From positions 1-52,012 of the forward strand of contig JADZDX010000050.1 in NCBI GenBank assembly GCA_020850835.1: DNA of 52,012 bases, written 5' to 3'. The notes under the pieces are model-generated. The model was not told where the DNA came from. It ran no database searches and saw only the letters and a list, made by a program, of their open reading frames with translations. This document shows, piece by piece, positions 25,201 through 45,300 of the stretch. Source of the stretch: Fimbriimonadaceae bacterium. GTDB taxonomy: Bacteria; Armatimonadota; Fimbriimonadia; Fimbriimonadales; Fimbriimonadaceae. Position 1 is the first letter of the stretch. Each line of letters begins with the position of its first letter. The translations under genes and the position numbers were made by a program.

Positions 25201-28200
25201 CTATTCAATCGGCTCCAAGGTGGCCGGGTCTTGCTTCAAGAACTTCACCCTTAACCATCGCACCAAGTCGTCAACCAGCGTGTGCATGATCGGGATGTCC
25301 ACAAGGGACAGAATGGTTCCCGCAACCAAGCCGCCGACAATCACTGTTCCCATCGGCTGATAAGCGTCCAGCCCAGACTTCGGGTGGAATGCGATCAACG
25401 CCATAACCACGACCGTGATAATCGTCGTCATCAAGATCGGCCTGAGCCGTTGTGGGCTGGCCTCAATCACCGCCTTGTTCCTCGGCATTCCCGACTTGCG
25501 GTATTCCATGATAAGGTCGATCATCAAGATCGCGGTCACGATGTCCATTCCGCTCAAGATGATCACCCCCATGATCGAAACCGTGCTGAAGGCCTGGTGC
25601 ATCAGCCACAACATCAAAAACACTCCCGACAGCTCCAGCGGCAAACTAAACATCATCTGCAACGGTTGCAAGAACCCGTGAAACTGTGCGACCAAAATGA
25701 AATACATCAGCACCAATGCAATTACGAGCCCGTTGAGCAGAATCCGAAACGAATCCATCATCTGCGTCATGTCGCCCCGCGCATCAATGCCATATCCGAG
25801 CGGCCAATTCAGCTTCGCCTGAGCCTGCATTTGTAAGTCCATCGTCACATCCATGCTCGGGCGACCATCCTTCCGGTAATAGCCGCCAAAGTTCACCGCT
25901 CGCCGCAACTGGTCGTGTTCTATGAGCGAAGGGGCCATCCGTTTCTCGAACCGCACGAGTTCCTTGAGCGGCACTTGCTCGTCCATCATCCCCGTCACGA
26001 ACATCGAATCCAGTTTCGACAAATCATTACGGGCGTCCTCCTCGTAACGCACCTGAATCGAAATCGGCCTTCGGTTCGGCAACCGGTAGAACGTTTCCGT
26101 CAATCCGCCTCTTAGAGCGTAATACGCCTGCTGGCTAATCGCCACCGGCGACAAACCATGGGCCGCCGCTTTCGCTTCGTCCACCACCAGATCGTAGGTT
26201 GGCTTTGCCATCTCCCAGGTCGTAAATGGTTGGGCGATGTCCGGTTTGTTTGTGCGGGGGTCGACCACATCCGTCTTCGCCATTGCCAACACCTCCTTAC
26301 CCAACTTATCCAGAACCTGAAGGTCTTCCCCATAGATAACGAGCGCAACCGGCGCAAGGGCCGTCGCCATCACGTCGCTCCCCATCTCTTTGATTTGAAT
26401 CCGGCGAATCCCCGGTATCTCCGCCATTGCCCGGCCATGAATCCGGTCGATAATCTTCCAAACATCCGGCCGTCCGCTGTCTTTATCCGAAAAGGTCAAC
26501 ATCGCCGAAGCCCCGTTGACCATCCGCATCCCATAACCCGTGTAGGCCACATCCTGCGGCATTCCCGGGCCCGCCTCGTTCCCGATCTCAATACTTGCCT
26601 TGCGGATCCAGCCCTTTTCGCCGCCTTCTTCTGCCATGATCCGCTCGAGCTGGCGCACTCCCGCCTTTGTCGCCGAGTAACTCGCCCCCGGTTGCATCTC
26701 AAGTTGAATCGATGCCTGACCCACATCGGCGAGCGGCATCATCTCGCTCCCGATGAAGTAATAGAAGCCAAAGCCGACCATCACTGTCACGAGCACCCGA
26801 ACCATATTCGCAAACCGATGCTGAAGCAACCACCGAATCAGCCGTTCGTACCCCTTTTCCATGCGGTGCAATCCGTTGTCGAACGGAGTCAGCACCAACC
26901 GACTGAACCACGTCACCCGGCGTTCATCGGGGTGTTGCAAGAACCGCGAACACAGAACGGAAGTCAAGGTCATCGAAACCACATAACTAAACGCAACCCC
27001 GAAAATGATGGGCCAGCAAAGTCCCTCGAACATCAACTGCGTGATTCCGCCCGAAAGTAACAATGGAATCAAAGCTACGATCAAGACCACCGTCCCCGCG
27101 AGAACCGATTTACGAACTTCCGTGATCCCGTCGATAGTCGCCCTGCGAACATCCTTGCCCATCCGCATGTGCCGCTCCACTGCGTGGATGTCGATGATTG
27201 CATCGTCTACCAACCGGCCAATCGAAATCAAAAGCCCGATCAAAGTCGAAGAATTCAAACTAAATCCAAGTGCCGACATAAACAGCAACGTCATCGCCAT
27301 CGAAGTCGGAATCGCCGTCAAAGCGATCAACGTGCCCCGCCACTCGCCCAAGAACAGTAGAACCGCTAACCCCGTCAAGATAACCGCCACGATCAGCTCG
27401 TGGGTCATGTTCTCAAACAAAATATCGACAAAACTTGCATTGTTGTAGGCGACCTCAAGCTTGATTCCCGGATAGTCCTTTTCAAGTTGCCGAGCCACCT
27501 TCTCTGCCGCCTCAATCGTCACCGGCGATGAAGCATCTGGGTTCTGCAAAATCTGAATCGCAATGGCGTCTTTAGCCGCGCCCTGCTCCATAAAGCGGTA
27601 GCCCGACCGTTCATCAACTTCGGTATCCAGTACCTCTGCAACATCGCCGATCTTCACAACGCGAGTACCGTCCGCCTTAACCGGATATTCCGCCACCATC
27701 GCTGCGGTCTTCGCTAGCGTATCGACCCGCAACACTGGCTCCGATCCACTTTGCGTCACCAGGCCAGCAGGTTTTGCGACGTTGTACTGGTCGATCGCAT
27801 CGCGCACATCAAGAATCGATAATCCAAGGCTCTTCAGCTTGACCGGGTCGGCCCGCACTTGCAATTGCCGCCGATGCCCCCCAAATGTCGTGACCGTATA
27901 AACGTTCTTGTTCGCTGACTTAAACCGATTGAGAATCTGGTTGTCCGCCAAATCGCGCAACCTTGTACTTGTCCACCCTTGATTCTCATCGCCCGTCATC
28001 GCGAGCGTTAAAACCGGCAGGTTAAGCGGATCGACTTTGACAATAAAGCTCGGCGTCCGGTTCGCATCGTCGCCCGGAAGCTCGCCCTTCGCTGCTTCCA
28101 TCAAAGCCTGAACCTCCGTGTACGCCTTCTGCATGTTGTGGCCATACGGAAACTCCAAAACCACCATGCTGAACCCGTCCTGGCTCACCGACCGGATGTA

Positions 28201-28467
28201 ACGTACGTTCTGGATCGAGACCATCTTTTGCTCGATTGGCGAGCTGTAATACGTCTCCATATCCTCAGCCGAGAGGCCAGGCATCTCTGTCACAATCCCG
28301 ATCAGCGGCGACTCGACATACGGCATAAACCGTTTCGGCATCAACTGCGTGACTGCGATCCAACCGAGCACCAAAACTGCAAGGAACAGCGCGACAACGC
28401 CGTACGGGTTATCGACCGACCACTGAACCACCCCGCCGCGTGGCTTCTCTGATTGCTCGACACTCAT
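25201..28467 (-). CDS. RND efflux transporter permease, atypical TM4 motif
   Basis: Full-length RND fold; TM4 'IGRLVDDAIIDIHAVERHMRMGKD'. Confidence 0.93.
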   Translation of the reverse strand: MSVEQSEKPRGGVVQWSVDNPYGVVALFLAVLVLGWIAVTQLMPKRFMPYVESPLIGIVTEMPGLSAEDMETYYSSPIEQKMVSIQNVRYIRSVSQDGFSMVVLEFPYGHNMQKAYTEVQALMEAAKGELPGDDANRTPSFIVKVDPLNLPVLTLAMTGDENQGWTSTRLRDLADNQILNRFKSANKNVYTVTTFGGHRRQLQVRADPVKLKSLGLSILDVRDAIDQYNVAKPAGLVTQSGSEPVLRVDTLAKTAAMVAEYPVKADGTRVVKIGDVAEVLDTEVDERSGYRFMEQGAAKDAIAIQILQNPDASSPVTIEAAEKVARQLEKDYPGIKLEVAYNNASFVDILFENMTHELIVAVILTGLAVLLFLGEWRGTLIALTAIPTSMAMTLLFMSALGFSLNSSTLIGLLISIGRLVDDAIIDIHAVERHMRMGKDVRRATIDGITEVRKSVLAGTVVLIVALIPLLLSGGITQLMFEGLCWPIIFGVAFSYVVSMTLTSVLCSRFLQHPDERRVTWFSRLVLTPFDNGLHRMEKGYERLIRWLLQHRFANMVRVLVTVMVGFGFYYFIGSEMMPLADVGQASIQLEMQPGASYSATKAGVRQLERIMAEEGGEKGWIRKASIEIGNEAGPGMPQDVAYTGYGMRMVNGASAMLTFSDKDSGRPDVWKIIDRIHGRAMAEIPGIRRIQIKEMGSDVMATALAPVALVIYGEDLQVLDKLGKEVLAMAKTDVVDPRTNKPDIAQPFTTWEMAKPTYDLVVDEAKAAAHGLSPVAISQQAYYALRGGLTETFYRLPNRRPISIQVRYEEDARNDLSKLDSMFVTGMMDEQVPLKELVRFEKRMAPSLIEHDQLRRAVNFGGYYRKDGRPSMDVTMDLQMQAQAKLNWPLGYGIDARGDMTQMMDSFRILLNGLVIALVLMYFILVAQFHGFLQPLQMMFSLPLELSGVFLMLWLMHQAFSTVSIMGVIILSGMDIVTAILMIDLIMEYRKSGMPRNKAVIEASPQRLRPILMTTIITVVVMALIAFHPKSGLDAYQPMGTVIVGGLVAGTILSLVDIPIMHTLVDDLVRWLRVKFLKQDPATLEPIE

Positions 28468-30341
28468 TCGCCCGAATCCTTATCCATCCGCACCAAGTCC
28501 ATCTTGCAAATCGGGCAGATTCCTGGTCCGTCCTCAATAACCTCCGGGTGCATCGAGCAGGTGTATTTCAACCCCGCCTGCTGTCCCTCAGGCTTCTTTG
28601 ATGCATCGGGGTCACCGCTTGGTGGAGGCGCAGCCGACCCATGGTTATGCGACGATTCGCCCCTTCCCGATGGCATCTCTTCCGGCCCACTGTTGCCCCA
28701 TTTCACTGGCTTGATCGCCGCTCCCGGGAACAGCTCGTCATCGCCCCCTACGGTCACTTGATCGCCTGTTTCGAGCCCGGAAACGATCTCTGTATAGCTG
28801 GCATCGCTGATTCCGACCGTCACCATCCGCCTTTCGACCGAGGTATTTCCCCGCGCATCGCGAGGAACCAAGTCCATCTTGCAAATCGGACATAAACCCG
28901 GCCCTTTATTGGACACCTGAGGGTGCATCGTGCAGGTGTATTCCGCGTTCGGGTCATCCTGGGCTTTACCTTCGTGCACCAACCATACATACCGAGTCCC
29001 ATCGCTGGCGGTCTTAACCGCCTCGTTCCTTACCGACAATCTCCGGGTCTGGCTTTGCGTGAACACCTCGAGTAACGAGTAGCTCCCGACATCCCAGCCG
29101 CTTCCAGGATTATCAATCACCGCCTCAATCCGAAACGTCCTGGAGCCCCCCTCGACGAATGGAAATACACTCGAAATCTTGGTGTCAACAACTTGCCCGT
29201 TCACTTTCACACGAGCTGAAGAGCCTGCAACCACTTTGCCCGCCAAACTCTGCGGCAAATCGGCCTGAACCCTGAGTTTTGCATCCGACTTGATCTTCAA
29301 AACCACTTGGCCCGCCATCACCGGCGTACCTGGGCTGACCACCCGCTCAGTCACAACGCCGCCCGATACAGCGCGAAGTTGGGTGTACGAAGCCATCGTT
29401 CCCGATGCCGCCGCTTCCGCAGACATGGCATTCGCGGAAGCACCCTCCGCCACCGCCTGGTCGCGGGCGGTCTTAACCCTGGCTTCCGCCTCGCGCACCG
29501 ACGAACGCATCGCCTCTAACTCGCTGTTGGCCGCTTCAACCCCAGCTTGAGCGCTCAACACCTCGGCTTGGGCAGTAGAGAGAGCGGCTTCGGCTTGTTG
29601 CTTTGCAGCCTCGGCCCCCCGCAGTTTAGAACGAACCGTATCGCGTGTCCGCACAGCTTCGTCCCGCTGTTGCTTCGATACATAGCCGTTGTCATAGAGG
29701 CCCTTGTAGCGGGTCACATTCTCTTCCGCGAGGGTCAACTCAGCCTCTTGTTCGTCGATCATGGCCTGCATCCGGGGGATGTCCTTCTGAGCCACGCTGA
29801 CCTTCGACTTCGCAGTCTTGAGCATCGCCGTCGCCTGTTGGGCCTTCGCCTCCGCCGTTTTCACGTCCGCTTTCGCCCGTGCAAAAGCGGCCTGCTCTTG
29901 CGCCACCATCGACTGCATTGCCGACGCCTTTAGTCGCGCGGCCGAAGCCCCTAACTGCCCCGCCGCGCTCTTCTCGTCTAACTCCCTCGCGTCAATAGTG
30001 CCGAGCAACTGCCCCGGTTTCACTTTGTCGCCCGGATAAACGGCAAGATTGGAAACAAGCCCATCCACTCGCGCCACTACATCCTCGTCGTTTAACGCCT
30101 GAACGGTTGCTGGAAACACCGAACTACCGCCGACCATCCGCTCCAGCGCATAATCGATTCCAACTGGGAAAGCCCCCGTCGGAGCCTTCATGGCCGACAT
30201 ATCCATCGACTGGGCTTCGATAACGCTCATCGACCCCCTCGGCCGCAGGGTTCGAACCGCCCATGTAACGCCAATCGCAACACCGATCAGCAACAAAATA
30301 CTGAACCACTGCTTCTTAAAAAATTGACCAACCGAACTCAT
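28464..30341 (-). CDS. RND periplasmic adaptor with two heavy-metal-binding (YxCxMHPxV...CPxCxMxL) domains
   Basis: HlyD/MFP architecture with coiled coil; 'YTCTMHPQVSNKGPGLCPICKMDLV' and 'YTCSMHPEVIEDGPGICPICKMDLV'. Confidence 0.93.
   Translation of the reverse strand: MSSVGQFFKKQWFSILLLIGVAIGVTWAVRTLRPRGSMSVIEAQSMDMSAMKAPTGAFPVGIDYALERMVGGSSVFPATVQALNDEDVVARVDGLVSNLAVYPGDKVKPGQLLGTIDARELDEKSAAGQLGASAARLKASAMQSMVAQEQAAFARAKADVKTAEAKAQQATAMLKTAKSKVSVAQKDIPRMQAMIDEQEAELTLAEENVTRYKGLYDNGYVSKQQRDEAVRTRDTVRSKLRGAEAAKQQAEAALSTAQAEVLSAQAGVEAANSELEAMRSSVREAEARVKTARDQAVAEGASANAMSAEAAASGTMASYTQLRAVSGGVVTERVVSPGTPVMAGQVVLKIKSDAKLRVQADLPQSLAGKVVAGSSARVKVNGQVVDTKISSVFPFVEGGSRTFRIEAVIDNPGSGWDVGSYSLLEVFTQSQTRRLSVRNEAVKTASDGTRYVWLVHEGKAQDDPNAEYTCTMHPQVSNKGPGLCPICKMDLVPRDARGNTSVERRMVTVGISDASYTEIVSGLETGDQVTVGGDDELFPGAAIKPVKWGNSGPEEMPSGRGESSHNHGSAAPPPSGDPDASKKPEGQQAGLKYTCSMHPEVIEDGPGICPICKMDLVRMDKDSGE
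28492..28569 (-). repeat. Heavy-metal-binding domain DNA repeat copy B
   Basis: Aligns without gaps to 28867-28944 at offset 375. Confidence 0.8.
28867..28944 (-). repeat. Heavy-metal-binding domain DNA repeat copy A
   Basis: Aligns without gaps to 28492-28569. Confidence 0.8.
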
Positions 30342-30409
30342 AATGAACCGACGATTTTTGTTCTAGAGGTATGCCGGTGGCCAGGATTAACCCCACCCAC
30401 CGTTGGGGA

Positions 30410-30754
30410 TTAGTTGATCGCTTTCCCGTCTTCGAACTTCGAAGGATTGTCCTTGAACTGGTCCGGGCATCCGCCGCAGCAGAAGTAATAGCGTTTGCCG
30501 TTATGGTCTTGATGCCCCACGGCTTTATCTTTATCCTCTATGACAGTTCCCATCACAGGGCACACAATTTCGCCTTTCTTGTTGGTAAACGCGGCGGGAG
30601 TCGCTTCAACCGGTGCTTCGGTGGTCGTGGTCCGGGCTGAGCCTGCCTCCCGCGACGCGGGCTCCGCAGGTTGGCCACATCCGGCGACGACAATGGCGAA
30701 CAGGGCGATAACGCCCAAAGTGACGAACGAGTTGGTTTTGTTGCTGATTTTCAT
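30410..30754 (-). CDS. YHS-domain lipoprotein
   Basis: ATG 30754: MKISNKTNSFVTLGVIALFAIVVAGCGQ (lipobox); 'CPVMGTVIEDKDKAVGHQDHNGKRYYFCCGGCPDQFKDNP'. Confidence 0.88.
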   Translation of the reverse strand: MKISNKTNSFVTLGVIALFAIVVAGCGQPAEPASREAGSARTTTTEAPVEATPAAFTNKKGEIVCPVMGTVIEDKDKAVGHQDHNGKRYYFCCGGCPDQFKDNPSKFEDGKAIN

Positions 30755-30815
30755 GTTTGGTTTCCGGTCAGGGCTTGCAAACGCAAGCAAGTCAATGATC
30801 TCAATTCGAGAGCAT

Positions 30816-31211
30816 TCAAACGACCGGAGGTGCACGGCCCGGCTTCAGCAGAGGCGGGGGATCGGGCGGGGGGCCATGGTTGAAAAGAGCGATCTCCGTC
30901 GATTTTTCGCAAACCGGAGCATGCAGATAGTCAAAAACTGGGCTTAGAACAATTTCAAGACTCGGAACCGAGGGCGTCGTAATCTTGGTTACCACCGCGA
31001 CCGGTGCTTCCGGTGTCGCAACCTTCGCGCAACCGCACTTCTTTCCCGGCTTCGCACAACCGCTTTCACAGCAGGACTTCGCGGCTTGAGCCATGTGACC
31101 GTGGGATAGCGTAACGCCACACAACCCGCCGCACAGGTCAACCAGACCGATTTGGGTTGCAAACACCAAAACCGCCAAGATGACGCGCGTAAGATTGGTC
31201 ACTTTGACCAC
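30816..31211 (-). CDS. Small secreted Cys-rich protein, Pro-rich 'GRAPP' C-terminus
   Basis: Signal peptide; 'CGGLCGV...KSCCESGCAKPGKKCGCAK...GPPPDPPPLLKPGRAPPVV'; first gene of RND operon 1. Confidence 0.65.
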   Translation of the reverse strand: MVKVTNLTRVILAVLVFATQIGLVDLCGGLCGVTLSHGHMAQAAKSCCESGCAKPGKKCGCAKVATPEAPVAVVTKITTPSVPSLEIVLSPVFDYLHAPVCEKSTEIALFNHGPPPDPPPLLKPGRAPPVV

Positions 31212-31305
31212 GATTACCTAGACGATACCTCCAATCACTTGGTTCCTGAGGCAAAATCAGCTACGCCGCGAAAGACGCTAAAGTTATCTGCTCAGCAGTC
31301 GAAAA

Positions 31306-31381
31306 TGGCGGCCCCGGAGGGAATCGAACCCCCGACGCCCTCCTTAGGACGGAGGCGCTCTATCCACTGAGCTACGAGGCC
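31306..31381 (-). tRNA. tRNA-Arg(CCT)
   Basis: Reverse strand GGCCTCGTAGCTCAGTGGATAGAGCGCCTCCGTCCTAAGGAGGGCGTCGGGGGTTCGATTCCCTCCGGGGCCGCCA; cloverleaf folds, anticodon loop GTCCTAA, CCA encoded. Confidence 0.97.
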
Positions 31382-31469
31382 GGAACCTCTAGGATACCAA
31401 GCCACCTTCGTCAAAGTTGTCACTCAATCGTAACCTTGGGCACGAACCCATCAAGTAGCCTACTGAGAA

Positions 31470-32480
31470 ATGCTTCCGTTCCTGCTTGCTCCTCCCGACA
31501 GCCTTGATCGCCCCACACCAGCGAACGAACCCAACCTTGTCCATATCCGCCAACTTACCTTTGGGGGGCAGAATGCCGAGGCCTATTGGAACCAAGAGGG
31601 GACGCAACTTACTTACCAAAGCCGACAGCCCGGCTACCCCGATGAACAAGTATTCGTAATGAATGCTGACGGGTCGGGCAAGCGGCTCATCAGTACAGGT
31701 TTAGGGCGATGTACTTGCAGTTATTTCTCGCCAGACGGCAAATTTGTTTACTTCAGTAGCACCCATGAGTACCATCGTGAAGGGCAACCACCCGCCGACA
31801 TGAGTAAGGGCTATGTCTGGATGATCAATCCATGGTTCGCCCTGTACCGAGTACCCATCGAAGGCGGGCAAGCCCAAAAGGTCCTCCGCAAATTTGGCTA
31901 CATCGCCGAAACAACGATCGCACCAAATGGCAAATTCATGACCTTCACAGGGTCATTTGATGGCGACCTTGAGATTTACCGAAGCGACCTCAATGGTGGC
32001 AATCTCGTTCGGCTAACCAGCGAAGCAGGCTACGACGGGGGACCCTTCGTGAGTTGGGACAGCAAGACGATCGTTTACCGTCGTGATCTGATTGAGAGCG
32101 ACACCGAGCTAGCCGATTATCGGGCATTACTCAAGGAAAATATGGTCCGACCTGGGAAGCTGGAGATTTGGGCGATGAATGCGGACGGCACCCACAAGCG
32201 GCAAATCACGAACTTGGGTGCGGCGTCGTTTGCACCGTTCCTCCACCCCGATAACAAGACCATCATTTTTAGCTCCAACTACGGCGATCCTAAGGGGCGA
32301 GAGTTTGATCTCTTTACGATTGGAACGAATGGTAAGGGATTGAAGCGTATCACCCACACTCCTGAGTTCGACGGCTTCCCCATGTTTACGAAGGACGGCA
32401 AGCGGCTGGTTTGGGCCAGCAACCGCCACGGAGAGGTCCGCGGTGAAACGAACCTGTTCGTGGCGGACTGGCAACCTTAG
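31470..32480 (+). CDS. TolB-like / PD40 beta-propeller protein
   Basis: Repeats 'FSPDGKFVYFSSTHE', 'IAPNGKFMTFTGSFDGDLEIYRSDLNGGNLVRLT', 'KLEIWAMNADGTHKRQIT'. Confidence 0.88.
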   Translation: MLPFLLAPPDSLDRPTPANEPNLVHIRQLTFGGQNAEAYWNQEGTQLTYQSRQPGYPDEQVFVMNADGSGKRLISTGLGRCTCSYFSPDGKFVYFSSTHEYHREGQPPADMSKGYVWMINPWFALYRVPIEGGQAQKVLRKFGYIAETTIAPNGKFMTFTGSFDGDLEIYRSDLNGGNLVRLTSEAGYDGGPFVSWDSKTIVYRRDLIESDTELADYRALLKENMVRPGKLEIWAMNADGTHKRQITNLGAASFAPFLHPDNKTIIFSSNYGDPKGREFDLFTIGTNGKGLKRITHTPEFDGFPMFTKDGKRLVWASNRHGEVRGETNLFVADWQP

Positions 32481-32488
32481 ATCATAGG

Positions 32489-35400
32489 CTAGACCGACTG
32501 ACCGGGACCATCGTCGAATTGGGCGCATAATACCGGTAGCACAACAAGGGTCAGGAGCGTCGCGGAAAGAATGCCTCCGATCACAACGGTGGCCAGTGGT
32601 CGTTGGACTTCAGCACCGATACCCGTATTGAGTGCCATCGGAACAAATCCCAGCGCGGCAACGAGCGCGGTCATCAATACAGGACGTAACCGTTCAATCG
32701 CCCCGCGTCTAACTGCATCCAGTTGATTTAGGCCAAGACCTCGTAGCCGGTTCATGGCCGAGATCATCACCACGCCGTTCATCACCGCAACCCCAGAAAG
32801 GGCAATGAAACCAACGGCCGCGGAGATGCTGAAGGGCATTCCTCGGAGCGCCAAGGCAAACACTCCTCCTGTAACAGCAAGCGGGACACCGGTGAAGATA
32901 ATGATGGCTTGCTTGATGGAACCAAAGGTCCAGAATAGGAGGATGAAGATCAGCCCCAACACTGCAGGAACTACCAAGCTCAGCCGACGAGAGGCTTGTT
33001 GCAGGTTTTCAAACTGCCCTCCCCATGCGATACTGTAGCCCTCTTTCAGGGGGACCTCCTTGGCAATCGCCGCCTTTGCCTTGGCAACAAATGAGCCGAG
33101 ATCGGTACCCCGAACATTGAGTTGCACGACCACCCGACGGCTCCCCATTTCCCGAGAAATCTGGGCCGGAGCGGGAACGTTTCTTATCTCGGCCACGGAG
33201 TTGAGCGGCACACTACCACCTTCGGGGGTCTTGACCGGCAACGACTTGATCGCTTCGACATCGTTTCGAACATCATCGGGCAAGCGCAAAGTCATCGCGA
33301 AGCGACGATCTCCCTCAACGATCTGACCAATGGGTTCGCCTCCCAAGGCTACCGAGACCAATTCTTGGATCTCGGCAATGTGGATTCCTAATCGAGCAAT
33401 GGCCTCTCGATCGATATCAATCTGCAGGACCGGGATCTCGTCGACTTGCTCAACTTCGACATCCTGAGCCCCCGGAATCTGCCGGACAACATCGGCGATC
33501 TCATCGGCTTTGAGCTTTAGTTCACCAAGGTTTTCGCCGAAAACTTTGATTCCGATGTCCGCCTTAACCCCCGAGACCAATTCGGCGAATCGCATCTGAA
33601 TCGGCTGAGAGAAGTTGTAGCCTTGCCCAGGTACTTCCGCTACTTTGTGTTCCAGTTCCGCAATCAACTTCTCCTTTGTCATGCCTGGCCGCCATTCATG
33701 ATGGGGCTTGAGCATGATGAAGCTGTCAGTCAAGCTGAGAGGCATGGGATCGGTGGCAACCTCGGGCGTACCGCTTCGAGAGAAGACCGTCACGACTTCA
33801 GGCACCTCAAGGACTTTCTTCTCGAAAGCGGTCACCAACTTTACGGTCTGTTCCGCATCAACTGTCCTTGCTCGGACCGGTTGAATGACGAGTGATCCTT
33901 CATCAAGCTGCGGCACGAACTCCGAGCCAAGGCGCGAGAAAATACCTGCGCAAAGGAGGAGAAGCCCTACACTAGATCCAACGATCAGCGTCTTTCGCCT
34001 TAGGGCGAAGTCAAGGAGGGATGTATAGGCCCGGCTCACGAATGACATGACCGGGTTGTTCGCCTCTCGCGTGTCCCCGGATAGGAATAAGCTGGCGAGC
34101 ACGGGGACCAAGGTCATGGTTAACAACAAGGCTCCGATCAGCGCGAATACAACGGTGAATGCCATCGGCTTGAAGAGCTTGCCTTCGGTTCCTTCTAGCG
34201 TTAGGATTGGCAGATAGACAACCGAAATAATCGTGACCGCAAACACTGTTGGTTTGGCAACTTCTCGCGTTGCTTGCCAGACACTTTGACGGACCTCTTC
34301 GCGCGTCAAGGTAATCCCCTTTTCGGCTCTGGCCTCCGATAACCTTCGTACCGCGTTTTCAATGACAACAACAGCACCATCAACGATGAGTCCGAAGTCA
34401 ATGGCTCCAAGACTCATCAGGTTGCCCGAAATGCCGTACTGCCGCATTCCAATTACAGCAACGAGCATAGCAAGCGGAATCGCGAGAGCGACGATTGCCG
34501 CGCCCCGAACATTTCCGAGTAGCAGGATCAAGATGACGGTGACTAGGGTCGCCCCTTCAAGAAGGCTCTTCGCGACCGTCTTCAAAACATCGTTGACCAA
34601 ATGTGAGCGATCGTAGGTCGTCGTAAGCTTTACGTCTTTGGGCAGCTGGGCTTTGATCTCCCGAACGCGCTTGTCAACCGCGTTCGCCACGTCACGGCCA
34701 TTGGCTCCCTTTAGCATCATCACGATGCCTATGAGAGACTCCTTACCGTCTTTCGTCGAGATGCCGGTGAGGATGGGTATCCCAAGTTGCACTTCGGCGA
34801 CATCACGGACCAGCACCGGGATGCTGCCCTCTGTCTTAACAACGATGCGCTCAATGTCGCCAATGGTCGTCGCCATGCCCACTGAACGGATAAGCATACG
34901 CTCGCCATTCTCCTCCAAAACACCACCGCCAGCGTTTAGGTTGTTCTCGTTGAGGGCGCTAACCACTTCATCAACACCAATGCCTCTCGATTGGAGGGCC
35001 GCCGGATTGATAACAATTTGGTACTGCTTGACGCTTCCGTCTGCCGCATTGACTTCGGCCACGCCCGGAACCGTCCTTAACTGAGGGGCGATGATCCAAT
35101 CCTGCACGGTACGGAGTTCCATCGGCGAGCGTGTCTCAGACTCCACCGCGTACATGTAGATATCACCCAGACCCGTGGAAACAGGCCCCATTTGCGGTGA
35201 TTCTATGCCCGATGGTAATTGCTCCTTGACGTTGTTCAAGCGCTCATTTACGAGTTGCCGAGCAAAATAGGTGTCTACATCATCGTGGAAGGTCACCGTT
35301 ACCTGAGAAAGCCCAAACTGGCTGAGACTTCGCACCTGCTCAACACCCGGGATACCACCCATGGCAATTTCAATTGGGAATGTCACCAGCTTCTCAACTT

Positions 35401-35578
35401 CTTCTGGCCCCATCCCTCCCGTTTCGGTGTTTATGGCGACCTGATTGGTCGTAATATCCGGAACGGCATCTAGGTTGAGTTGCTGCCACGAAACCGCCCC
35501 ATAGCCGACAAGGATGATTGCGCCAACGATGATGAGAAGCCTTTGAGCAAGGCTGAATCTAACAATTCGTTCAAGCAC
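32489..35578 (-). CDS. czcA: CzcA/CusA-family heavy-metal RND permease
   Basis: 'FSLAQRLLIIV...', 'DAVPDITTNQV', TM4 motif 'GAIDFGLIVDGAVVVIENAVRRL'. Confidence 0.94.
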   Translation of the reverse strand: MLERIVRFSLAQRLLIIVGAIILVGYGAVSWQQLNLDAVPDITTNQVAINTETGGMGPEEVEKLVTFPIEIAMGGIPGVEQVRSLSQFGLSQVTVTFHDDVDTYFARQLVNERLNNVKEQLPSGIESPQMGPVSTGLGDIYMYAVESETRSPMELRTVQDWIIAPQLRTVPGVAEVNAADGSVKQYQIVINPAALQSRGIGVDEVVSALNENNLNAGGGVLEENGERMLIRSVGMATTIGDIERIVVKTEGSIPVLVRDVAEVQLGIPILTGISTKDGKESLIGIVMMLKGANGRDVANAVDKRVREIKAQLPKDVKLTTTYDRSHLVNDVLKTVAKSLLEGATLVTVILILLLGNVRGAAIVALAIPLAMLVAVIGMRQYGISGNLMSLGAIDFGLIVDGAVVVIENAVRRLSEARAEKGITLTREEVRQSVWQATREVAKPTVFAVTIISVVYLPILTLEGTEGKLFKPMAFTVVFALIGALLLTMTLVPVLASLFLSGDTREANNPVMSFVSRAYTSLLDFALRRKTLIVGSSVGLLLLCAGIFSRLGSEFVPQLDEGSLVIQPVRARTVDAEQTVKLVTAFEKKVLEVPEVVTVFSRSGTPEVATDPMPLSLTDSFIMLKPHHEWRPGMTKEKLIAELEHKVAEVPGQGYNFSQPIQMRFAELVSGVKADIGIKVFGENLGELKLKADEIADVVRQIPGAQDVEVEQVDEIPVLQIDIDREAIARLGIHIAEIQELVSVALGGEPIGQIVEGDRRFAMTLRLPDDVRNDVEAIKSLPVKTPEGGSVPLNSVAEIRNVPAPAQISREMGSRRVVVQLNVRGTDLGSFVAKAKAAIAKEVPLKEGYSIAWGGQFENLQQASRRLSLVVPAVLGLIFILLFWTFGSIKQAIIIFTGVPLAVTGGVFALALRGMPFSISAAVGFIALSGVAVMNGVVMISAMNRLRGLGLNQLDAVRRGAIERLRPVLMTALVAALGFVPMALNTGIGAEVQRPLATVVIGGILSATLLTLVVLPVLCAQFDDGPGQSV

Positions 35579-37110
35579 TAGTGTTCGTGCCCCTTCAGTT
35601 CGCCCTTCTTCAGTTCACTGGCGAGAACAAATGTGCCTTTCACGACGACGATATCACCTTCCTTGATGCCGGACTTGACCTCGACGAGACCCTCGCTACG
35701 CTTTCCTAAGGTGACCTCTACTCTCTCGAATCCATGGTCGTCCTGGATGAAAACGAAGTTCGTCTCGCCTTCCGTGACCACAGCCTCGGATGGAACAGCC
35801 AAAGCTTCATCCCCTGAGCCCACCGCAAGGTGGACATTGGCAAACATTTCCGGCTTAAGCAGGCCGAATGTCTCGGTCACAAGACACTGAACAGCGATGG
35901 ATCGTGTCTTGGGATCAACCCGATCCGTAACAATTTGAACGATGCCGGAGAATTCACGATCACCCAATGACGGTACGGTTACCCGCACCTGGCTGCCCTT
36001 CCGGGCTTTGATTGAATCCCGCTCCGGAACATTTGCCGTAACCCAAACTGAAGCGAGGTTTTCGACTTCCATCAGGGCCGTTGTACGATCAACGGCTTGC
36101 CCTTTGGTGATGTCGAGGTGAGTAATGTTGCCCGATATCGGTGCGACCAAAGAAACTTGTCCCACCGATGCGCTCCCGCCCGCCGTATTGGAACGATATA
36201 CGGACCGGGCATTGGCAATCAGCCGTTCTGCACTCGCAACACTGGCCTTTGCTGAGCCCACCCGTACCTTTGCACTCTCGACCTCTAGGGCCGATGAACG
36301 GACTTCGGCTTCTGCAGCTTGGACCTCCTTTGCATTCAGCAAGTCCCGCGCAGCAATGTTCTTTTCCCGCTCCAAGGCGGCCTTTGCGGTGTCTACCCGA
36401 GCTCGAGCCCGATCGAGTTTAATCTCATCCTGTTGGAGTTCGAGTTTTGCCGCATCAAACTCAGCCTTCGAGACAATTCCGTCCCGGTATAGCGACTCCA
36501 AGCTTCGGACCACACCGAGGTGACTTGCTTGCTCCTTCTGAATACTCAGTAGTTCGCTTTGGGCGTCGCTCAGATTGCTCTGAGCCTGCTGCAACGGGGC
36601 CTGGCTAAAGGCACCCGCGTGGGCAAGCTGACGTTGACGAGCCAGGTTGGCCCTTGCCGCTGATTCCTTGGACTTCGCAAGTTGCACCTCCGCTTCTGCC
36701 TCGTTTAGGGATGCCCGCGCTGAATCTCGCTGCCGTTCAGCGTCCGCGATCCCGGCCCATGATTGAGCTAGTTCTGGCGACTCAATGACGGCTAAGCACT
36801 CGCCCTGCTTTACGGTATCGCCCAGCGAAACTGCAATAGAAACCACGCGACCCGGGACAGGGGGCGTCACCACGGCTCTGCCGCGAGCGGTTGAAGTCAC
36901 CACACCGGGAACCTTGATGGAAGCGCGCATCAGTTGAACGGATGCAGGTCGCGTTTCTATGCCGGCGAGCTGAACTTGTTCCTCATCAAGCTCAACTACG
37001 TTCCCGTGCTCTTCGTCACTATGGCCAGCTTCTGCCTCTGGTATTTCAGCCGGCCTTGAGCAGCCCACGGCGACTAGGATGGTTATGAGTAGAGGGAGGT
37101 ACCGCATCAA
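35578..37110 (-). CDS. czcB: RND periplasmic adaptor (CzcB-like)
   Basis: Lipobox 'ITILVAVGCSRPA'; lipoyl/coiled-coil/MPD architecture; between czcA and tolC-like genes. Confidence 0.92.
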   Translation of the reverse strand: MMRYLPLLITILVAVGCSRPAEIPEAEAGHSDEEHGNVVELDEEQVQLAGIETRPASVQLMRASIKVPGVVTSTARGRAVVTPPVPGRVVSIAVSLGDTVKQGECLAVIESPELAQSWAGIADAERQRDSARASLNEAEAEVQLAKSKESAARANLARQRQLAHAGAFSQAPLQQAQSNLSDAQSELLSIQKEQASHLGVVRSLESLYRDGIVSKAEFDAAKLELQQDEIKLDRARARVDTAKAALEREKNIAARDLLNAKEVQAAEAEVRSSALEVESAKVRVGSAKASVASAERLIANARSVYRSNTAGGSASVGQVSLVAPISGNITHLDITKGQAVDRTTALMEVENLASVWVTANVPERDSIKARKGSQVRVTVPSLGDREFSGIVQIVTDRVDPKTRSIAVQCLVTETFGLLKPEMFANVHLAVGSGDEALAVPSEAVVTEGETNFVFIQDDHGFERVEVTLGKRSEGLVEVKSGIKEGDIVVVKGTFVLASELKKGELKGHEH

Positions 37111-38294
37111 TCTTGCACCTCAATCACAGCGCCGGACGCTTTGTACTTGGCTGTGAGCGCAAGGTTCATCGCGAGTTCCGCCTCAATCAACTCTTGTTCA
37201 ATCTCGCGGAGGGCCCGTGTTGCTTCCAGAACATCAAGCAAGGTCCCATAGCCCTGCGCGAAACCGCTTTGAGATTTCTGCACGAGTTCGCTCGCGGACT
37301 GCTGGATCGCCTGATAGGATTGCACCGAACCGCGCCAAGCCGCAAGCTCATCATCGAGCCTTCGTATCTCGGCTTCGGCAAGTTTCTGCGCGTCATCCCT
37401 TCGCTTCTGAAATGCTTCAGCCCGCTTTCTCGATGCCCTTGCCTCACTGCGGCTCTTGCCGAAATCGTAAACTCGCCAAGTTAGCTGGAGTCTCGCTCCA
37501 AACTGGGATTTCCCTTCGCGCCAAGGGGTGCGAAGAGCAGTAATATCCAACTCAGGAGCATTCTCTTTGGAGGCCAAGCGGGTCTCAGCTAGGGCTACCC
37601 CTGCCTGTGCGTCCAGAGCTTGGAGTTCCGGGTGTTGCGATAGGTCCACCTTGGGTTCAGAGAGACTAGCCGATTCGGGTAACTCAGTGACTTCTGCAAT
37701 TCCCATCGCTCCGGCAAGCCGCTTTTGCGTTCCCGCGAACTGAGCCTGTCGAAGAAGCATGGCTTGGCGAGCGCGATCCCGCTCGATCCGAGCTCGTGTA
37801 ACTTGTATCTCCGGGACGTTACCAATCTCGAACCTCTTCGTTGTAGCCACCAATAGCGATTCGGCGACTTGAAGAAGTTCGGCGGACACCTTGAAATGCT
37901 GCTTGGTGGCGATGGCTTCGAAGTAAGCGATCAGCACTTCCTGCTGCACGTCCAACAACGTGGTTCTAGCCTCAGCAAGGGCGACAGTCAAGCCGGCTTC
38001 GCCGATACTTCTTAATGCCGAGGTCCTTCCAAAGATATCAATGGAATGGCTTAAGTACAAATCCTGATCGGTTGCGCCAAGGCCCTGGCGCGATGATTGT
38101 CCTAACCCAAAGTTCAGCCCGGGATAGGCGCTGAGCGCTTGGCGGTTGGCCTTTGCGCTTTCAACCATTTTTAATGCGGATTGGACTGCGGGCCGGTTTT
38201 TTCGGGCCACTGCAAGTGCTTGTTCTACGGTTAGAGTTTGGCTCCACGCACTCACGCTGAGCGCGACAAGGGGTATGAAGATTGTTGCTTTCAA
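37107..38294 (-). CDS. czcC: TolC-family outer membrane efflux protein (CzcC-like)
   Basis: 'LTVEQALAVARKNRPAVQSALKMVESAKANRQ' and long helical region; ATGA overlap with czcB. Confidence 0.9.
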   Translation of the reverse strand: MKATIFIPLVALSVSAWSQTLTVEQALAVARKNRPAVQSALKMVESAKANRQALSAYPGLNFGLGQSSRQGLGATDQDLYLSHSIDIFGRTSALRSIGEAGLTVALAEARTTLLDVQQEVLIAYFEAIATKQHFKVSAELLQVAESLLVATTKRFEIGNVPEIQVTRARIERDRARQAMLLRQAQFAGTQKRLAGAMGIAEVTELPESASLSEPKVDLSQHPELQALDAQAGVALAETRLASKENAPELDITALRTPWREGKSQFGARLQLTWRVYDFGKSRSEARASRKRAEAFQKRRDDAQKLAEAEIRRLDDELAAWRGSVQSYQAIQQSASELVQKSQSGFAQGYGTLLDVLEATRALREIEQELIEAELAMNLALTAKYKASGAVIEVQD

Positions 38295-38343
38295 AAATTT
38301 GTTCCTAAGGGTTTAGGTCAGGCCGCATCAGCCTGACAAACGA

Positions 38344-38754
38344 CTAAGCCATTAGGAACAAGGGAGGCGCCCGGGACTGAGCATGATCGGGCGGACCCAC
38401 CGGCGGGGATCCGGCAAGCCAGATGATCGGCGGGTTACCTAGAATCTGGCTGGTCTCAAGGAACAACGGATGCAATACTGGAAGATCCAGATCGTAATGG
38501 ATCGGTGTCGCCGTAAATTGACTTGCTAACTCCGATTCATCGTGGCAGGCTACAAGTTCGCAACACGACCGGCAGTCGTCTGTTGCCATGCTCGGGCTCT
38601 CACATTCCTTAGAAAGTTCTGGGCATGCCGCACAAGCCGAACCACTTGGCAAGACATAAGTTGCCGTGCAGGGGTGAATCCCAAGGCTCGCGAATAGCGA
38701 AACCAAAAGGCAGACCAAAGCCTTTCGAGTTATCGCTGTAAGCTCTGTCTTCAC
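38344..38754 (-). CDS. Small secreted Cys-rich protein, Pro-rich 'SRAPP' C-terminus
   Basis: 'SACAACPELSKECESPSMATDDCRSCCELVACHDE...GSPPVGPPDHAQSRAPPLFLMA'; GTG 38754 with TATAAT 7 nt upstream; first gene of czcCBA operon. Confidence 0.65.
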   Translation of the reverse strand: MKTELTAITRKALVCLLVSLFASLGIHPCTATYVLPSGSACAACPELSKECESPSMATDDCRSCCELVACHDESELASQFTATPIHYDLDLPVLHPLFLETSQILGNPPIIWLAGSPPVGPPDHAQSRAPPLFLMA

Positions 38755-38811
38755 CAATGGAATTATAGCCGCGCGGACGATCGTTCTTCAGCCCATAGGT
38801 ATGATGCGAGC

Positions 38812-39312
38812 GTGGATGTATCCCAAGCTCTCCTCGAATCGTGGCGCCGGCAATGCAAATGCTTAAATGCTCTCGCAAGCCTTGTTACCGAAGACAACAA
38901 ACAGTTGAAACCCTCCGACGACGGCATGCCTTTGTTTGAGCAACTGAGCCACGTTGCCGAGGTAAGGGCCTACTGGTTTGACCAGGCCAATGGTGGGCCA
39001 TTTGAAGGTTACCAACCCCTGTTCGAGCAACTGTCTGCAACCGAATGGAAAATGTCTGATGACCTCTTCGCCATCCGCAAACAACTTTCATTGAGCGAGG
39101 AGGCCATCCTGAGGTGGACGGAACTTAAGATGAAGGAAGGGGCACAGCCAACTGGCCCCTATGATCACCCGGTGCTCTTCCTCCAGCACATGGTCTGGCA
39201 CGAAGGCTACCATGCAGCCCTCATCATGCTTGCCCTTCGGCTTGCCGGGCTGGAGCCGCCGGAGGAGTGGGAAGAGCCCAACATCTGGGGCAACTGGCGA
39301 AATTATGGCTAG
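38812..39312 (+). CDS. DinB superfamily protein
   Basis: 'PLFEQLSHVAEVRAYWFDQ', 'VLFLQHMVWHEGYHAALIMLALRLAG'. Confidence 0.85.
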   Translation: MDVSQALLESWRRQCKCLNALASLVTEDNKQLKPSDDGMPLFEQLSHVAEVRAYWFDQANGGPFEGYQPLFEQLSATEWKMSDDLFAIRKQLSLSEEAILRWTELKMKEGAQPTGPYDHPVLFLQHMVWHEGYHAALIMLALRLAGLEPPEEWEEPNIWGNWRNYG

Positions 39313-39383: not shown

Positions 39384-42300
39384 TCAGCGACCTGTGGTCG
39401 GCGACAGCGGTTGCATCGCCTCTTCAACAGTGATCCAGCCGTCGTGATTTCGATCTAGGTATGAAGCACGATTGCTGCCCGCCTCCTTCACTGCGTCGGC
39501 AACTGAAATGAGACGCCGGATGGGGTCACGATCACGCGAGTAATTGCCCGGCAGCGTTCCATCCAAGAGCCCGAAGTTCGATGAGATGAACGTGAAGTCA
39601 GCACCATCCACGACCCCATTTCCAGAAATATCCGCATGGCGGAATAAAGGATTGAACAACAAGGAGAGAGGTGAATCAGCGCCCGGCGCACTGCCATAGT
39701 TGACCGCGTAGACCACGTAGTCGCCAATGTCAATTCGTCCATCACGGTTGATATTGCCTCCAAGAAGTGTCATATCTACTTCGTAGTTATCACCGTCCCA
39801 TTGGAGCATTCCGAATGAACGCAGCGAGTGCAACTCGTCCTTGACGCTGATCGCGTAGGTGCTCAGGTTATCATCGGGCAAGAACCCATCCTGCGGACCA
39901 AACACGACCGTCGCATGACCTGTGGAATCAAAGACCACGTCACGTGAGACGTCCACTGGTGGATTAGAGCCGCCAGCTGTCCCTCCGAGCCACATCGTCA
40001 TTCCCCTTGTGGTAGGCCCGACTGCCGCAAAGCTCTGCAACGTCAAGTTAAGCGTGATCGTTGTCCCGGCGACATTAATGTTCACCGTTGCCAGAGCCGA
40101 ATCCACGGTGCCGTCATTCACCTTAAAGGTGAAGGAGTCCGGTCCTGAGTAGTTGGGCGTTGGTGTGTAGGTCACATCGGCGCCAGATTGCGCCAACGTG
40201 CCATGGCTGGGCGGCGTGACGATGACAAAGGTCAACGTATTGGCCGGTAGATCTGCATCCGTTCCCGTCAGCGTAATGGCCAAGTCCGTGTTCACCTGCG
40301 CGGTGACCGATTGCCCATTGGCAACGGGCGCCACGTTGACCTCGTCAACTTGGATCACCACCACCTCGTCCGCGGTCAGGGCTCCATCGCTCACGCGTAC
40401 CGTGAATGTAACCGTTGTTGGCCCTTGCGCCTCGGTCGGCGTCCAACTGAACACACCGGTGTTGGCGTCAATGGTGGCGCCGCTTGGCGCACCGATCAGG
40501 CTATAGGTGAGTACATTTGCCGGCAGATCCGCATCATGTCCTTCGGCATCGAAGGTGATCGGACTCATTTCGGGAGCCGTAATGTCGGCTATCGCATCAA
40601 TAGTTGGTGCGACATTAGCTTCACCCACGTGGATTGTTACCGATTCATCTGCATCCAAAGTGCCATCGCTAACCCGGACCGTGAACGTATAGTCGTTCGG
40701 CCCTTGGGCTTCCGTTGGCGTCCAGCTGAAGACACCCGTATTCGCGTCAATTACCGCTCCACTCGGAGCACCCACCAAGCTGTAGGTGAGCGTCTGAGCC
40801 GGCAGATCCGCGTCATGACCATCAGCATCGAAGGTGATCAAGGTCATCTCATCAGCCGTGATGTCGCTAATCGAATCAATAGTTGGGGCTTCGTTGACTT
40901 CGTTGACATGGATCGTGATCGTCTCACTGTCGGATCCTCCATTGCCATCGCTGACCTCAAAGGTTACGGTGTAATCACCGGGGCCTTGTACTTCGGAGGG
41001 TGTCCAATTGAAGGTATCGCCTACAAGGGTAGCCCCCAGAGGAAGGCCCGTTGCGGAGTAGGCGGGAACTCCACCATCAATATCTGATGAGCTCAAGGTG
41101 AAGGAAAGGAGCGAATGCTCGTTGACTGACTTATCGCCAATTGTCGTTAGCGAGGGAGGATCGTTGACGGGAACCACCGTTATCGACACGGTTGCCGGCG
41201 CGGAGTCCAACGTTACGTCAGTCGCCGTGAACGTAAAGCTATCCGAACCCGCGTAGTTTGGATCCGGAGCATAAGTCAAGTTTGGAGCTACGCCGCTTAG
41301 CGTGCCATGAGCCGGAGGCGTCACCACAGTGTAGGTTAAAGGAACTTCAAATGAGTCCGTGTCCGAACCTGCCAATGTGATCCCTACCGAACCATCCTCT
41401 GTTACCGAAACCGATTGGCTATTGGCCGTCGGTGCTGTATTCGAAGTCACCATCTGAACGGTGCCTGTGCCCGTTGCCGCAACAGGACCCGAGATCCCAC
41501 CAGTGTGCAAGGTGTACGTTGTACTGATGTCAATTGGCGCCGCAAACAAGAGGGTTTCCAAATAGGCCCGCGCATTCATCAGCTTTTCGGCAGGTGTACT
41601 TCCCAGTTCTGGAGGCGTCGCGTCCCAAGCATTACCAACCCCGACGTATACCAATTCATCAACTGGCGTTGACCCCGGCGTTACATTGGAGTTATAAGTG
41701 AGGTCATCGCCGGTGCCCTTGATCCGGTCCGGGCCGTAATCAATACCAACACGATGCGCCGCGTAAGTGAGTCCGACAAAGTCACCCTCGTACGAGAGGT
41801 CGTTATCGTCATTGCTGGAACTCATATCAAACTCCAGGTCCTCTAGGTTAAACCGCGTGCCGTTGCCCAAGATATGCAGACCGTAGTGCATTCGATGCCC
41901 GAGTTCTGCATCAAACGGTGCACTTGGATTCAGCACTCCAAGCCAGAACGGGTAATTCGTCACTACGGCATCAGACCATACAATCTGCGTAGGTAACTCG
42001 TAGGCGGTCGGGTCAGTTGACCTCAAGCCATCCGGAACTCCCGGAGTATGCTCAAGGCTGTTGAGCGCACGAACTCGATAGCCATCGTAACTTGGAGAGC
42101 CATACGCGTTTGGAGCCGGTGAGCCAAACACCTGGACGGAGATGTTCGAGACATCGCTGACGGTGATCGTCACCGTTGCAACATTCGAATCGACTGTCCC
42201 ATCGTTCGCCTTGAACGTAAAGGTATCCACGCCAGTGAAGATGCCGGTCGGGGCGTAGACCCAGTTCGGCCCGGTGCCGCTCAGTGTTCCGTGAGCTGGA

Positions 42301-45300
42301 GGCGTCACCACGGTGTAGGTCAAGGGATCGCTGTCGGGATCGTTGGCCGTTACCGGAGTATTGACCGAAGTATTTTCGTTAGTCGAAAAACTAGCGTCAT
42401 TCGCTACCGGCGGCTGATTCACATTGTTCACAGTGATGCTCACCGTCGTGGCCGATGAAGTTGCATATACGTCCGTCGCCGTAAACGTGAAGCTGTCCGG
42501 ACCCGTGTAATTCGCATTCGGAGTGTAAGTCACATTCGGAGCCGTACCCGTGACCGTCCCATGAGCCGGTTGACCATATGCATAGGTCAAAGGAACTTCA
42601 AACGCATTCGAGTCCGTCGCCGAAAGGACAACCGGGAGCGACGTGTTCTCATCCATCACCAAGGTCTGCGGACTGCCCAACGGTGCAACATTCGACGTCA
42701 CCATCTGAACCGTAGCCGATGCAGACCCTAGGACAGGGCTCGCATGGTTGCTCTCGTGCAGGGTGTAGGTCGTACTGATGTCAATTGGGTCAACCGAGAG
42801 AATCGTCTCCAGATAGGAGCGCATGCTCACCATCTTGTCGTAATCGGTTGCTCCAGGCTCGAAGGTAGCGTCCCAAGCATTACCGATGCCCACATAGACC
42901 AACTCATCAACCATCATCTCCGCCGGGATATCATCTGTCTGGTAGACAATGTCATCACCCGTACCCTTGATGCGGTCGGGACCGTAGTCAATTCCCTTGC
43001 GGCTTGGACCGTAGAAATCGGGGTACGGATAGTTCGGATCAGTTCCATCAAACCAACCGTCAAAGTCCATATCATTCCCCGAGTCGCTTGAATTCATATC
43101 GAAATCAAGGGCCGATAGGCTGAAGCGGGTGCCATTGCCCAAGATATGAACACCAAAGTGCATTCGGTGTCCATATTCGCCCGCGAATGGAGCCGATGGA
43201 TGAAGGACATTCATCCAGAAGCCAAATGGCGTCGCGACGTTCTCGTACCAAGCAACCGTCGCAGGAGTCTCGTAGGCCGTCGGATCAACCAGTCGCGATA
43301 GAATATCCGGGTGGCTGGGATCTTCCAAGCTATCCAAAGCATTGTCTCGGTAACCAGGCCAGCTCGGTGAACCATACGCATTCGGAGCCGGTGAGCCTAA
43401 GACCTCCATCGTTACCGGAGGCGCAGCCATAACCGTAAGGCTGACAGTTGCGGTGTTCGAATCCTCATGACCATCATTCGCCTTAAAGGTAAAGCTGTCG
43501 CTGCCGACATAATTCTCAGCTGGCGTGTAAACCCAGCTCGGAGCGGTGCCGCTTAAAGTGCCATGAGCTGGAGGCGTCACCACAGTGTAAGTCAAAGGAT
43601 CGCTGTCCGGATCAGTGGCCACACCCGTGGCCGACACAGGGGCATTCTTGCCGGTGCTGTAGCTTGCATCTGAAGCCACCGGGGCATCATTCGTGTTGTT
43701 CACAGTGATGCTCACCGTCGTGGCCGATGAAGTTGCATATACGTCTGTCGCCGTAAACGTGAAGCTGTCCGGACCCGTGTAATTCGCATTCGGAGTGTAA
43801 GTCACATTCGGAGCTGTACCCGTGACCGTCCCGTGAGCCGGTTGACTATATGCATAGGTCAAGGGAACTTCAAACGCATTCGAGTCCGTCGCCGAAAGGA
43901 CGACCGGGAGCGAAGTGTTCTCATCCATCACCAAGGTCTGGGGACTGCCCACCGGAGCGACATTCGACGTCACCATGGTCACGGTGTCACTACCCGTGGC
44001 AATGATGGCTCCCAAATGACCACCGTTATGAAGGGTCACCGTGCCTGAGATATCAATATCCTGATTCCCGAGAATCTCTTCCAGGTACGCACGGCCGGCA
44101 ACCAAGGCTTCGGTCGGCGTCGGGTACGTCATGTCGGTCACCGCGGCCCAAGCATTGCCCGGACCCCGGAACATCAACTCATCCACTAACTGGTTATCAG
44201 GGCCCGAATTGATGATTGTGTCGTCGCCACCACCCTTCATTCGGTCAGCGCCGTAGTTGATACCAACCAAATCAGCACCGTAGTTGTAACGCACATCCAT
44301 CCAGCCATCGTTATCCATGTCGTTCGAGCCTTCGGTCGAATTCATGTCGAACTCAATGTCCTCCAAGCTGAACAGGTGCCCATTACCAAGCACATGGAAG
44401 GTGTACTGCAATCGGTGCCCAAGATCAGTATCAAACGGCGCGGCAGGGTTGAGTACACCCATCCAGAAATAGAAGTTCGTTACCGTATTATCGGACCAGA
44501 CAATCTGGGTCGGCAATTCGTAAGCATAGGGCGTTACAGTGCGCAAGCCAATTGGCGTGCCAGGCGTATTTTCGAGGCTACTCAAGGCATTGGCAAGCCA
44601 ACCATTGTAGCTATTGGTCGCGCCATAAACATTCGGCGCCGGCGATGCATAAACACCGACTGTTGGTGTTGCGCCATTGACGGTCAGGTCAATCGTGGCC
44701 TCGCCTGAATCTACCGTTCCGTCGTTCACCTTAAACTTGAAGGAATCTGGGCCCGAATAATTTAGATCGGGCGTGTAGGTCAAGTTAGGAGCGGTACCGC
44801 TAAGGGCACCGTGGGTCGGCAACTGCGTAACCGCATAGGTCAATGGATCGCTATCAGGGTCTGTACCTGCGAGCGTGATTGATTTTGGCGTATTGATGTT
44901 GGTCGAGTAACTGCCGCCCGTCGCAACGGGAGGCGCATTGCTGCTACTGACGGTCACGGTCAGCGTTGCCGAGTTTGAATCTTGGTCGGAGTCGTCAAAT
45001 TTGTAAGTGAGAACGGCCGTTCCCGTCGTCCCATTGGGTGTGTAGGTGTAGCTACCGTCATTGCCAAGGCTAAAGGAGCCCGGCCCCGACTGGCTCACTA
45101 CGGTGGCATTCTGCTTGACCTCGCCCGAATCATTGGTGAGGACATTGCCATTGATTGGTGTGGCATCGTCGGTAGAGCTGGCGTCATTGTTCGCCACCGG
45201 TGCGAGCCAGGGCTCGGGCGACCAGTCAATGCCCCGGTATGAGGCCGTTGACCCAGCAGCCCCAGCCACCGTCGCTTCTACGGTGAACGTAGAACCCGTG

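Follow-up and report, generated by a model that had tools for sequence, protein, structure and literature searches.

Cysteine-rich, putatively exported proteins ending in RAPP as probable ribosome-arrest leaders of two metal-efflux operons in a Fimbriimonadaceae bacterium

The window analyzed here, a 52,012-nucleotide (nt) stretch from a Fimbriimonadaceae bacterium of the phylum Armatimonadota (contig JADZDX010000050.1 of assembly GCA_020850835.1), contains two metal-efflux operons on its minus strand, each headed by a small, probably exported protein that is rich in cysteine and carries the motif Arg-Ala-Pro-Pro (RAPP) close to its C-terminus. Very probably these proteins, leader 1 and leader 2, are regulatory leaders that sense metal during their export and control translation of the operon that follows. 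An earlier note made from the DNA alone had described the two open reading frames (ORFs) as genes for cysteine-rich proteins of about 130 amino acids with a RAPP tail at the head of metal-efflux operons, and this description holds.

Leader 1 (30816..31211, minus strand, as are all features of both operons; coordinates are those of the window) starts with GTG and encodes 131 amino acids with 8 cysteines, ending in GRAPPVV. Its cysteine cluster CCESGCAKPGKKCGC (31029..31073) has cysteines at −79, −78, −74, −67, and −65 from the RAPP arginine, and its RAPP codons (30825..30836) are the predicted arrest site, with the first proline in the P-site as in other RAPP peptides (PMC10987492). After a gap of 61 nt follow a gene for a small YHS-domain protein (30410..30754; PF04945), whose start was placed from the Shine-Dalgarno (SD) sequence and homologues, one for a CusB-like membrane fusion protein with heavy-metal-binding domains (28464..30341; PF16576, PF19335), and one for a CusA-like pump of the resistance-nodulation-division (RND) type (25201..28467; PF00873). 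This operon (25201-30754) has no outer-membrane efflux gene among its YHS, membrane-fusion, and RND genes, and the next gene downstream is of the LtrA family. Leader 2 (38344..38754) also starts with GTG and has 136 amino acids with 9 cysteines, ending in SRAPPLFLMA; a TTG at 38757 is a possible alternative start that would give 137. Its cysteine cluster CRSCCELVAC (38545..38574) has cysteines at −67, −64, −63, and −58 from the RAPP arginine, and its predicted arrest site (38362..38373) is kept as RAPP or RGPP in relatives. Here the gap is 49 nt, followed by genes for a CzcC-like outer-membrane efflux protein with a TTG start (37107..38294; PF02321), a CzcB-like membrane fusion protein (35578..37110; PF16576), and a CzcA-like RND pump (32489..35578; PF00873).

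In both operons, the end of the leader gene can fold onto the SD sequence of the gene behind it. The anti-SD arm of operon 2, TTGTTCCTAA (38352..38361), consists of the codons immediately after RAPP and pairs with the SD arm TTAGGAACAA (38299..38308) ahead of the czcC start, with an inner hairpin GTCAGGCTGATGCGGCCTGAC (38317..38337) between the two arms. In operon 1, the anti-SD arm CCGGTCGTTTG (30817..30827) overlaps the last proline codon, the tail, and the stop codon, and its CCGGTC pairs with the GACCGG of an SD arm (GACCGG...CAAAC; 30755..30769) lying directly ahead of the ATG of the YHS gene. The same arrangement, with base pairing between the codons directly past RAPP and the SD of the following gene, is found in the short-tailed relatives of these leaders.

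This masking was computed as the difference in the cost of opening the SD with and without the bases that a RAPP-stalled ribosome would cover, against a null of synonymous recodings. The stalled footprint eased SD opening beyond the recoding mean in 37 of 37 loci, 22 of them with an individual p below 0.05; the gain was 10.1 kcal/mol for leader 2 (null 2.0 ± 2.2) and 5.0 kcal/mol for leader 1 (null 1.6 ± 1.0). Sliding the ribosome edge along the transcript, the opening cost stays near 11 kcal/mol up to +6 from the P-site and drops to 3.5 at +15, which coincides with the predicted edge of a RAPP-stalled ribosome. The two arms also co-vary: when arms were swapped between loci, cognate pairs averaged −15.2 kcal/mol versus −8.5 for non-cognate pairs (p = 3.5e-11). 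As a control, 255 ordinary same-strand gene pairs with similar gaps from one complete relative genome gave a gain of −0.07 ± 1.46 with a maximum of 6.9, compared with a mean of 6.7 for the short-tailed RAPP loci (p = 1e-16), and leader 2 exceeds every control pair; as related loci were counted as independent, these p-values are optimistic.

Stems that mask an SD and are opened by the ribosome finishing the upstream gene are common in operons, and the stems here could be no more than a sign that leader and pump gene are coupled in translation in the ordinary way, with no part for RAPP arrest. The long-tailed relatives speak against this. In members with 13 to 17 residues past the motif, a local hairpin covers the SD and an upstream segment is able to pair with the anti-SD strand of that hairpin; the SD is easiest to open (mean 4.3 kcal/mol) with the ribosome edge at about +18 to +30 and recloses (about 12 kcal/mol) further on. 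An SD that is open only with the edge near RAPP and closes again toward the stop codon is the opposite of what coupling predicts, and coupling also leaves the conservation of RAPP and the cysteine spacing described below unexplained, making it an improbable account. In an ermC-type attenuator, leader segments pair in alternative ways and the SD is freed only during a ribosome stall. Judged from the predicted pairings, the long-tailed relatives follow this logic and carry an alternative switch, which the short-tailed leaders of the window lack; the proposed signal also differs from ermC, being metal on the emerging chain rather than a drug in the ribosome. With the edge at +15 the long-tailed SD opens in part, and the effect of a ribosome stalled exactly at RAPP would likewise be partial if it did not melt several bases further.

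The second feature that sets these proteins apart is a fixed distance between cysteines and motif. Both leaders have fewer than 150 amino acids, cysteines 58 to 68 residues ahead of the RAPP arginine, and Pro-Pro within the last 15 residues, leaving tails of 2 (leader 1) and 5 (leader 2) residues after RAPP. In 35 of 35 non-redundant proteins of the leader 2 family (family 2), CxxCC lies 66 to 69 residues from RxPP, across a stretch in which only 12% to 15% of residues are identical. Other parts of these proteins vary in length, the first cysteine pair lying 19 to 33 residues before CxxCC and the tail past RxPP spanning 2 to 17 residues. In leader 1 and its relatives, CC lies at about −79/−78 and CxC near −68 to −63, and 2 relatives (L029 and L063) repeat the cysteine positions of the leader 1 cluster. 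In CutF and CruR the cysteines lie 45 residues from the stall (PMC9973294, PMC9426467), and the authors of the CutF study estimated that about 30 residues occupy the ribosomal tunnel and about 17 span the membrane (PMC9973294). Applied to 58 to 68 residues, that estimate would have the cysteine cluster on the periplasmic side, just clear of the channel.

Homologues of leader 2 were found in 25 of 61 related genomes, at 31 loci in a public genome collection, and in 50 of 291 genomes of the phylum, all but one of these 50 in the Fimbriimonadales. Leader 1 is rarer by single-sequence search; a profile of leader 1 and its distant relatives matched 46 of the 291 genomes, 45 of them within the order, with some of the weaker matches coinciding with family 2 or left uninspected. 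Named genomes with related loci are mostly Fimbriimonadaceae, Fimbriimonadales, Armatimonadetes, or Chthonomonas. Throughout the relatives R(A/G)PP is nearly invariant, RAPP and RGPP replacing one another, with RSPP (L040) and REPP (L023) as the exceptions. An association of RAPP tails with RND pumps beyond this genome, on which the earlier note had staked its proposal, is favored by these data, as all 35 non-redundant family-2 loci analyzed head a czcC-like gene that starts 41 to 66 nt past the leader stop; L023 and L005/L036 were excluded from this set for an unclear start of the next gene. At L005 (the same locus as L036), what comes after the RAPP leader is an outer-membrane efflux ORF that looks short or broken, with czcB next; a frameshift or an assembly error may be the cause. 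Across all families, 29 of the 44 downstream genes used start with TTG.

The cysteine regions of the two leaders do not align as single sequences, as had been noticed before; a profile-profile comparison does link the two families (probability 95.9%, E 6e-9), although common signal peptides and the richness in cysteine and proline may inflate this value. Scans of both leaders and their relatives against Pfam and NCBIfam gave no usable match. The earlier likening to DUF2946 and CzcI-like accessory proteins was a good lead in style, and neither leader matches the DUF2946 Pfam model or any other Pfam family at E values up to 1.

RAPP is an established ribosome-arrest motif whose structure has been solved on the ribosome (PMC10951233); it is strongly avoided in bacterial proteomes and, where small exported proteins carry it, lies close to their C-terminus (PMC12992588), and CruR, a Bordetella leader that responds to copper, requires it (PMC9426467). 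In the 52-kb window, R(A/G)PP turns up 3 times among all six-frame ORFs with at least 50 codons, in both leaders and in one ORF antisense inside the CusA gene; amino-acid frequencies put the chance of finding it in a protein's last 30 residues at about 0.0005. Because the motif is so rare, its presence in both leaders is more than chance. In the leaders' own genome, a degenerate DNA pattern for R(A/G)PP was too unspecific, matching no more often than its control. The one complete relative genome (2,758,789 bp), scanned with a simple home-made gene caller, has neither RAPP nor RGPP in 2,679 predicted genes, versus about 17 expected from amino-acid frequencies. The caller missed the leaders themselves, whose composition is atypical. 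R(A/G)PP endings were found on 3 ORFs located for the most part outside predicted genes, namely leader 1, a relative ahead of a YHS gene and then a thioredoxin-like gene, and one ahead of a metallothionein-like ORF. A fourth leader, leader 2 (L044), shares half its length with an antisense call that is probably spurious. The motif in this genome thus sits on four cysteine-rich leaders of metal-related genes.

These results bear on the function first suggested for the proteins, that of stable periplasmic metal buffers or chaperones (or else sensors) that supply the pump with metal and use RAPP as an interaction tag. The hydrophobic N-termini (judged by eye, with a confident N-terminal helix in the AlphaFold2 model of leader 2), the cysteine clusters, the gene neighborhood, and purifying selection on both proteins (Ka/Ks, the ratio of nonsynonymous to synonymous substitution rates, of 0.18 for leader 1 and 0.36 for leader 2 versus near relatives) would all suit a buffer. 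However, such a role leaves unexplained the SD-masking codons past RAPP, the constant spacing across unconserved sequence, and the absence of RAPP and RGPP from the remaining proteome. In the AlphaFold2 model of leader 2, the signal helix is the one confident part and the predicted local distance difference test score is 47 to 60 from residue 81 on, and CutF is quickly degraded after export (PMC9973294). Buffering with delivery to the pump is therefore unsupported and very improbable, and sensing was the better part of the suggestion. The idea of an interaction tag gives way to ribosome arrest, the known role of the motif (PMC10951233, PMC12992588, PMC9426467), because codons after RAPP are chosen under a constraint that keeps the following gene's SD hidden, which a tag does not explain. 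Our results argue against annotating such small cysteine-rich periplasmic proteins as metal chaperones.

In the mechanism we propose, the nascent leader would be threaded through the Sec channel until the ribosome stalls with the first proline of RAPP in the P-site, at which point the cysteine cluster, 58 to 68 residues away, would be just out on the periplasmic side. When no stall occurs, the codons past RAPP would fold onto the SD of the czcC or YHS gene and shut it; a ribosome stalled at RAPP would cover the anti-SD arm, leaving the SD free and the operon translated. Most likely the stall lasts longer when metal occupies the emerging cysteine cluster, which is the proposal made for CutF, and efflux would then be switched on by excess metal in the periplasm. 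The conserved R(A/G)PP, the fixed spacing, the co-varying SD-masking stem under the predicted footprint, and the gene neighborhood are computed results, and an ON logic, in which the stall frees the SD and turns the operon on, is supported. We infer the arrest itself, metal binding, the identity of the metal, and the sign of the response, and this reliance on inference for arrest and metal response weighs against the proposal, as do several other points. Most of the RAPP-like sequences from Escherichia coli and Bacillus subtilis that have been tested arrested poorly (PMC10987492), and the CutF tail by itself gave no stall in a LepB fusion (PMC9973294). The masking effect is weak in L029, L046, and L214, and the folding energies ignore kinetics. 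The leaders ahead of the metallothionein-like ORF (L211 and L212) show no SD masking, so if they act at all, it must be by other means.

The sign could also be reversed, with stalling as the default and metal relieving the stall to turn the operon off. CruR, which likewise ends in RAPP, has been proposed to act so (PMC9426467), but an efflux pump that is shut off by its own metal makes little physiological sense. The architecture differs as well: CruR has a 162-bp intergenic region with a Rho termination site and its CXXC 45 residues before RAPP, whereas here gaps of 41 to 66 nt with SD-masking stems are combined with a spacing of about 65. We consider a CruR-like sign unlikely, if still to be reckoned with, and that of the leaders is likely the opposite. 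Distinctly unlikely is a leader that reads export or disulfide status instead of metal, the stall being prolonged by cysteine oxidation or slow Sec export. Known RAPP leaders do monitor Sec and YidC (PMC10987492), others precede Dsb or thioredoxin genes (PMC12992588), and one of the relatives found here precedes a YHS gene with a thioredoxin-like gene behind it; against this, the leaders stand ahead of metal genes throughout (RND efflux, YHS, metallothionein-like).

The kind of system to which this reading of a metal-responsive arrest leader assigns the two proteins is already known. CutF of Rhodobacter capsulatus and the CutF-like class share with them a length below 150 amino acids, a central cysteine motif, and a C-terminal Pro-Pro (PMC9973294, PMC8456105), together with a short intergenic region and a stem masking the SD of the metal gene (computed here). 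The Sec signal of that class may have its counterpart in the hydrophobic N-termini of the leaders, and the CutF authors had already noted CutF-like genes adjoining RND efflux genes (PMC9973294). The differences lie in the spacing, in the motif (PPPRL versus RAPP/RGPP), in an anti-SD arm within leader codons just past the arrest motif, and in sequence families that are new and belong to the Armatimonadota. CruR, a DUF2946 protein of Bordetella pertussis, is likewise an exported cysteine protein whose C-terminal RAPP is required to control a downstream metal gene (PMC9426467), unlike the leaders in having a DUF2946 match. The arrest peptides ApdA, ApdP, and RQH are alike in their C-terminal RAPP-like motif, localization signal, position ahead of a regulated gene, and restriction to particular orders (PMC10951233, PMC10987492), with the difference that the leaders precede metal genes rather than secA, secDF, or yidC and have cysteine clusters at a fixed distance. 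CzcI of Cupriavidus is a small exported protein upstream of czcCBA, reportedly without a C-terminal proline motif (PMC9973294), and is set apart here by description. A literature search, with most subscription journals out of its reach, returned no paper on RAPP leaders of RND pumps in Armatimonadota.

The finding is well supported, and its new features are the spacing of about 65 residues, the sequence families, the SD-masking codons in the arrest tail, and the alternative switch in relatives. Few metal-responsive arrest leaders have been characterized so far (CruR and CutF), they have opposite signs, and their mechanism is unclear. The leader family offers a natural series with constant cysteine-to-arrest spacing, variable sequence, and two RNA designs, in which direct tests can address how the fate of a stalled ribosome is decided by metal on its nascent chain. 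It would also carry the mechanism over to a phylum that has received little study, with RND pumps, YHS genes, and perhaps a metallothionein-like gene among the genes controlled. More tentatively, and as a possibility rather than an expectation, these leaders may form an order-wide regulon in which a spacer of about 65 residues sets the metal site outside the Sec channel at arrest, two RNA switches operate on the same arrest, and RAPP/RGPP is kept out of the remaining proteome.

Further RAPP-type leaders were seen in the order. A third family (L214, L215, and L216, ending in RAPP) lies ahead of a larger YHS-domain protein, with strong arm pairing in L215 and L216; in genome G105 a thioredoxin-like gene follows this YHS gene. 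L211 (G105:C1:2487072-2487410, minus strand) and its homologue L212 in G106 are cysteine-rich leaders ending in RGPP, directly upstream of a 47-amino-acid cysteine-rich metallothionein-like ORF (MSNNCSNPNCKCENC...), and this locus has no Pfam or NCBIfam match. L217 and L221, cysteine-rich RAPP-ending ORFs from other families of the order, precede in one case a protein with an HMA-like GLHCEGC motif and in the other a pilin-like gene.

Upstream of leader 2 in the window, a perfect TATAAT (38762-38767, minus strand) lies 7 nt ahead of the GTG and suggests a leaderless transcript; by raw count, a TAnnWT box at this position occurs in a minority, 16 of 47 loci. A DinB-family gene (38812-39312, plus strand) is divergent from leader 2, and beyond it a minus-strand gene (39384-47009) encodes a repetitive secreted protein of 2541 amino acids with cadherin-like repeats.

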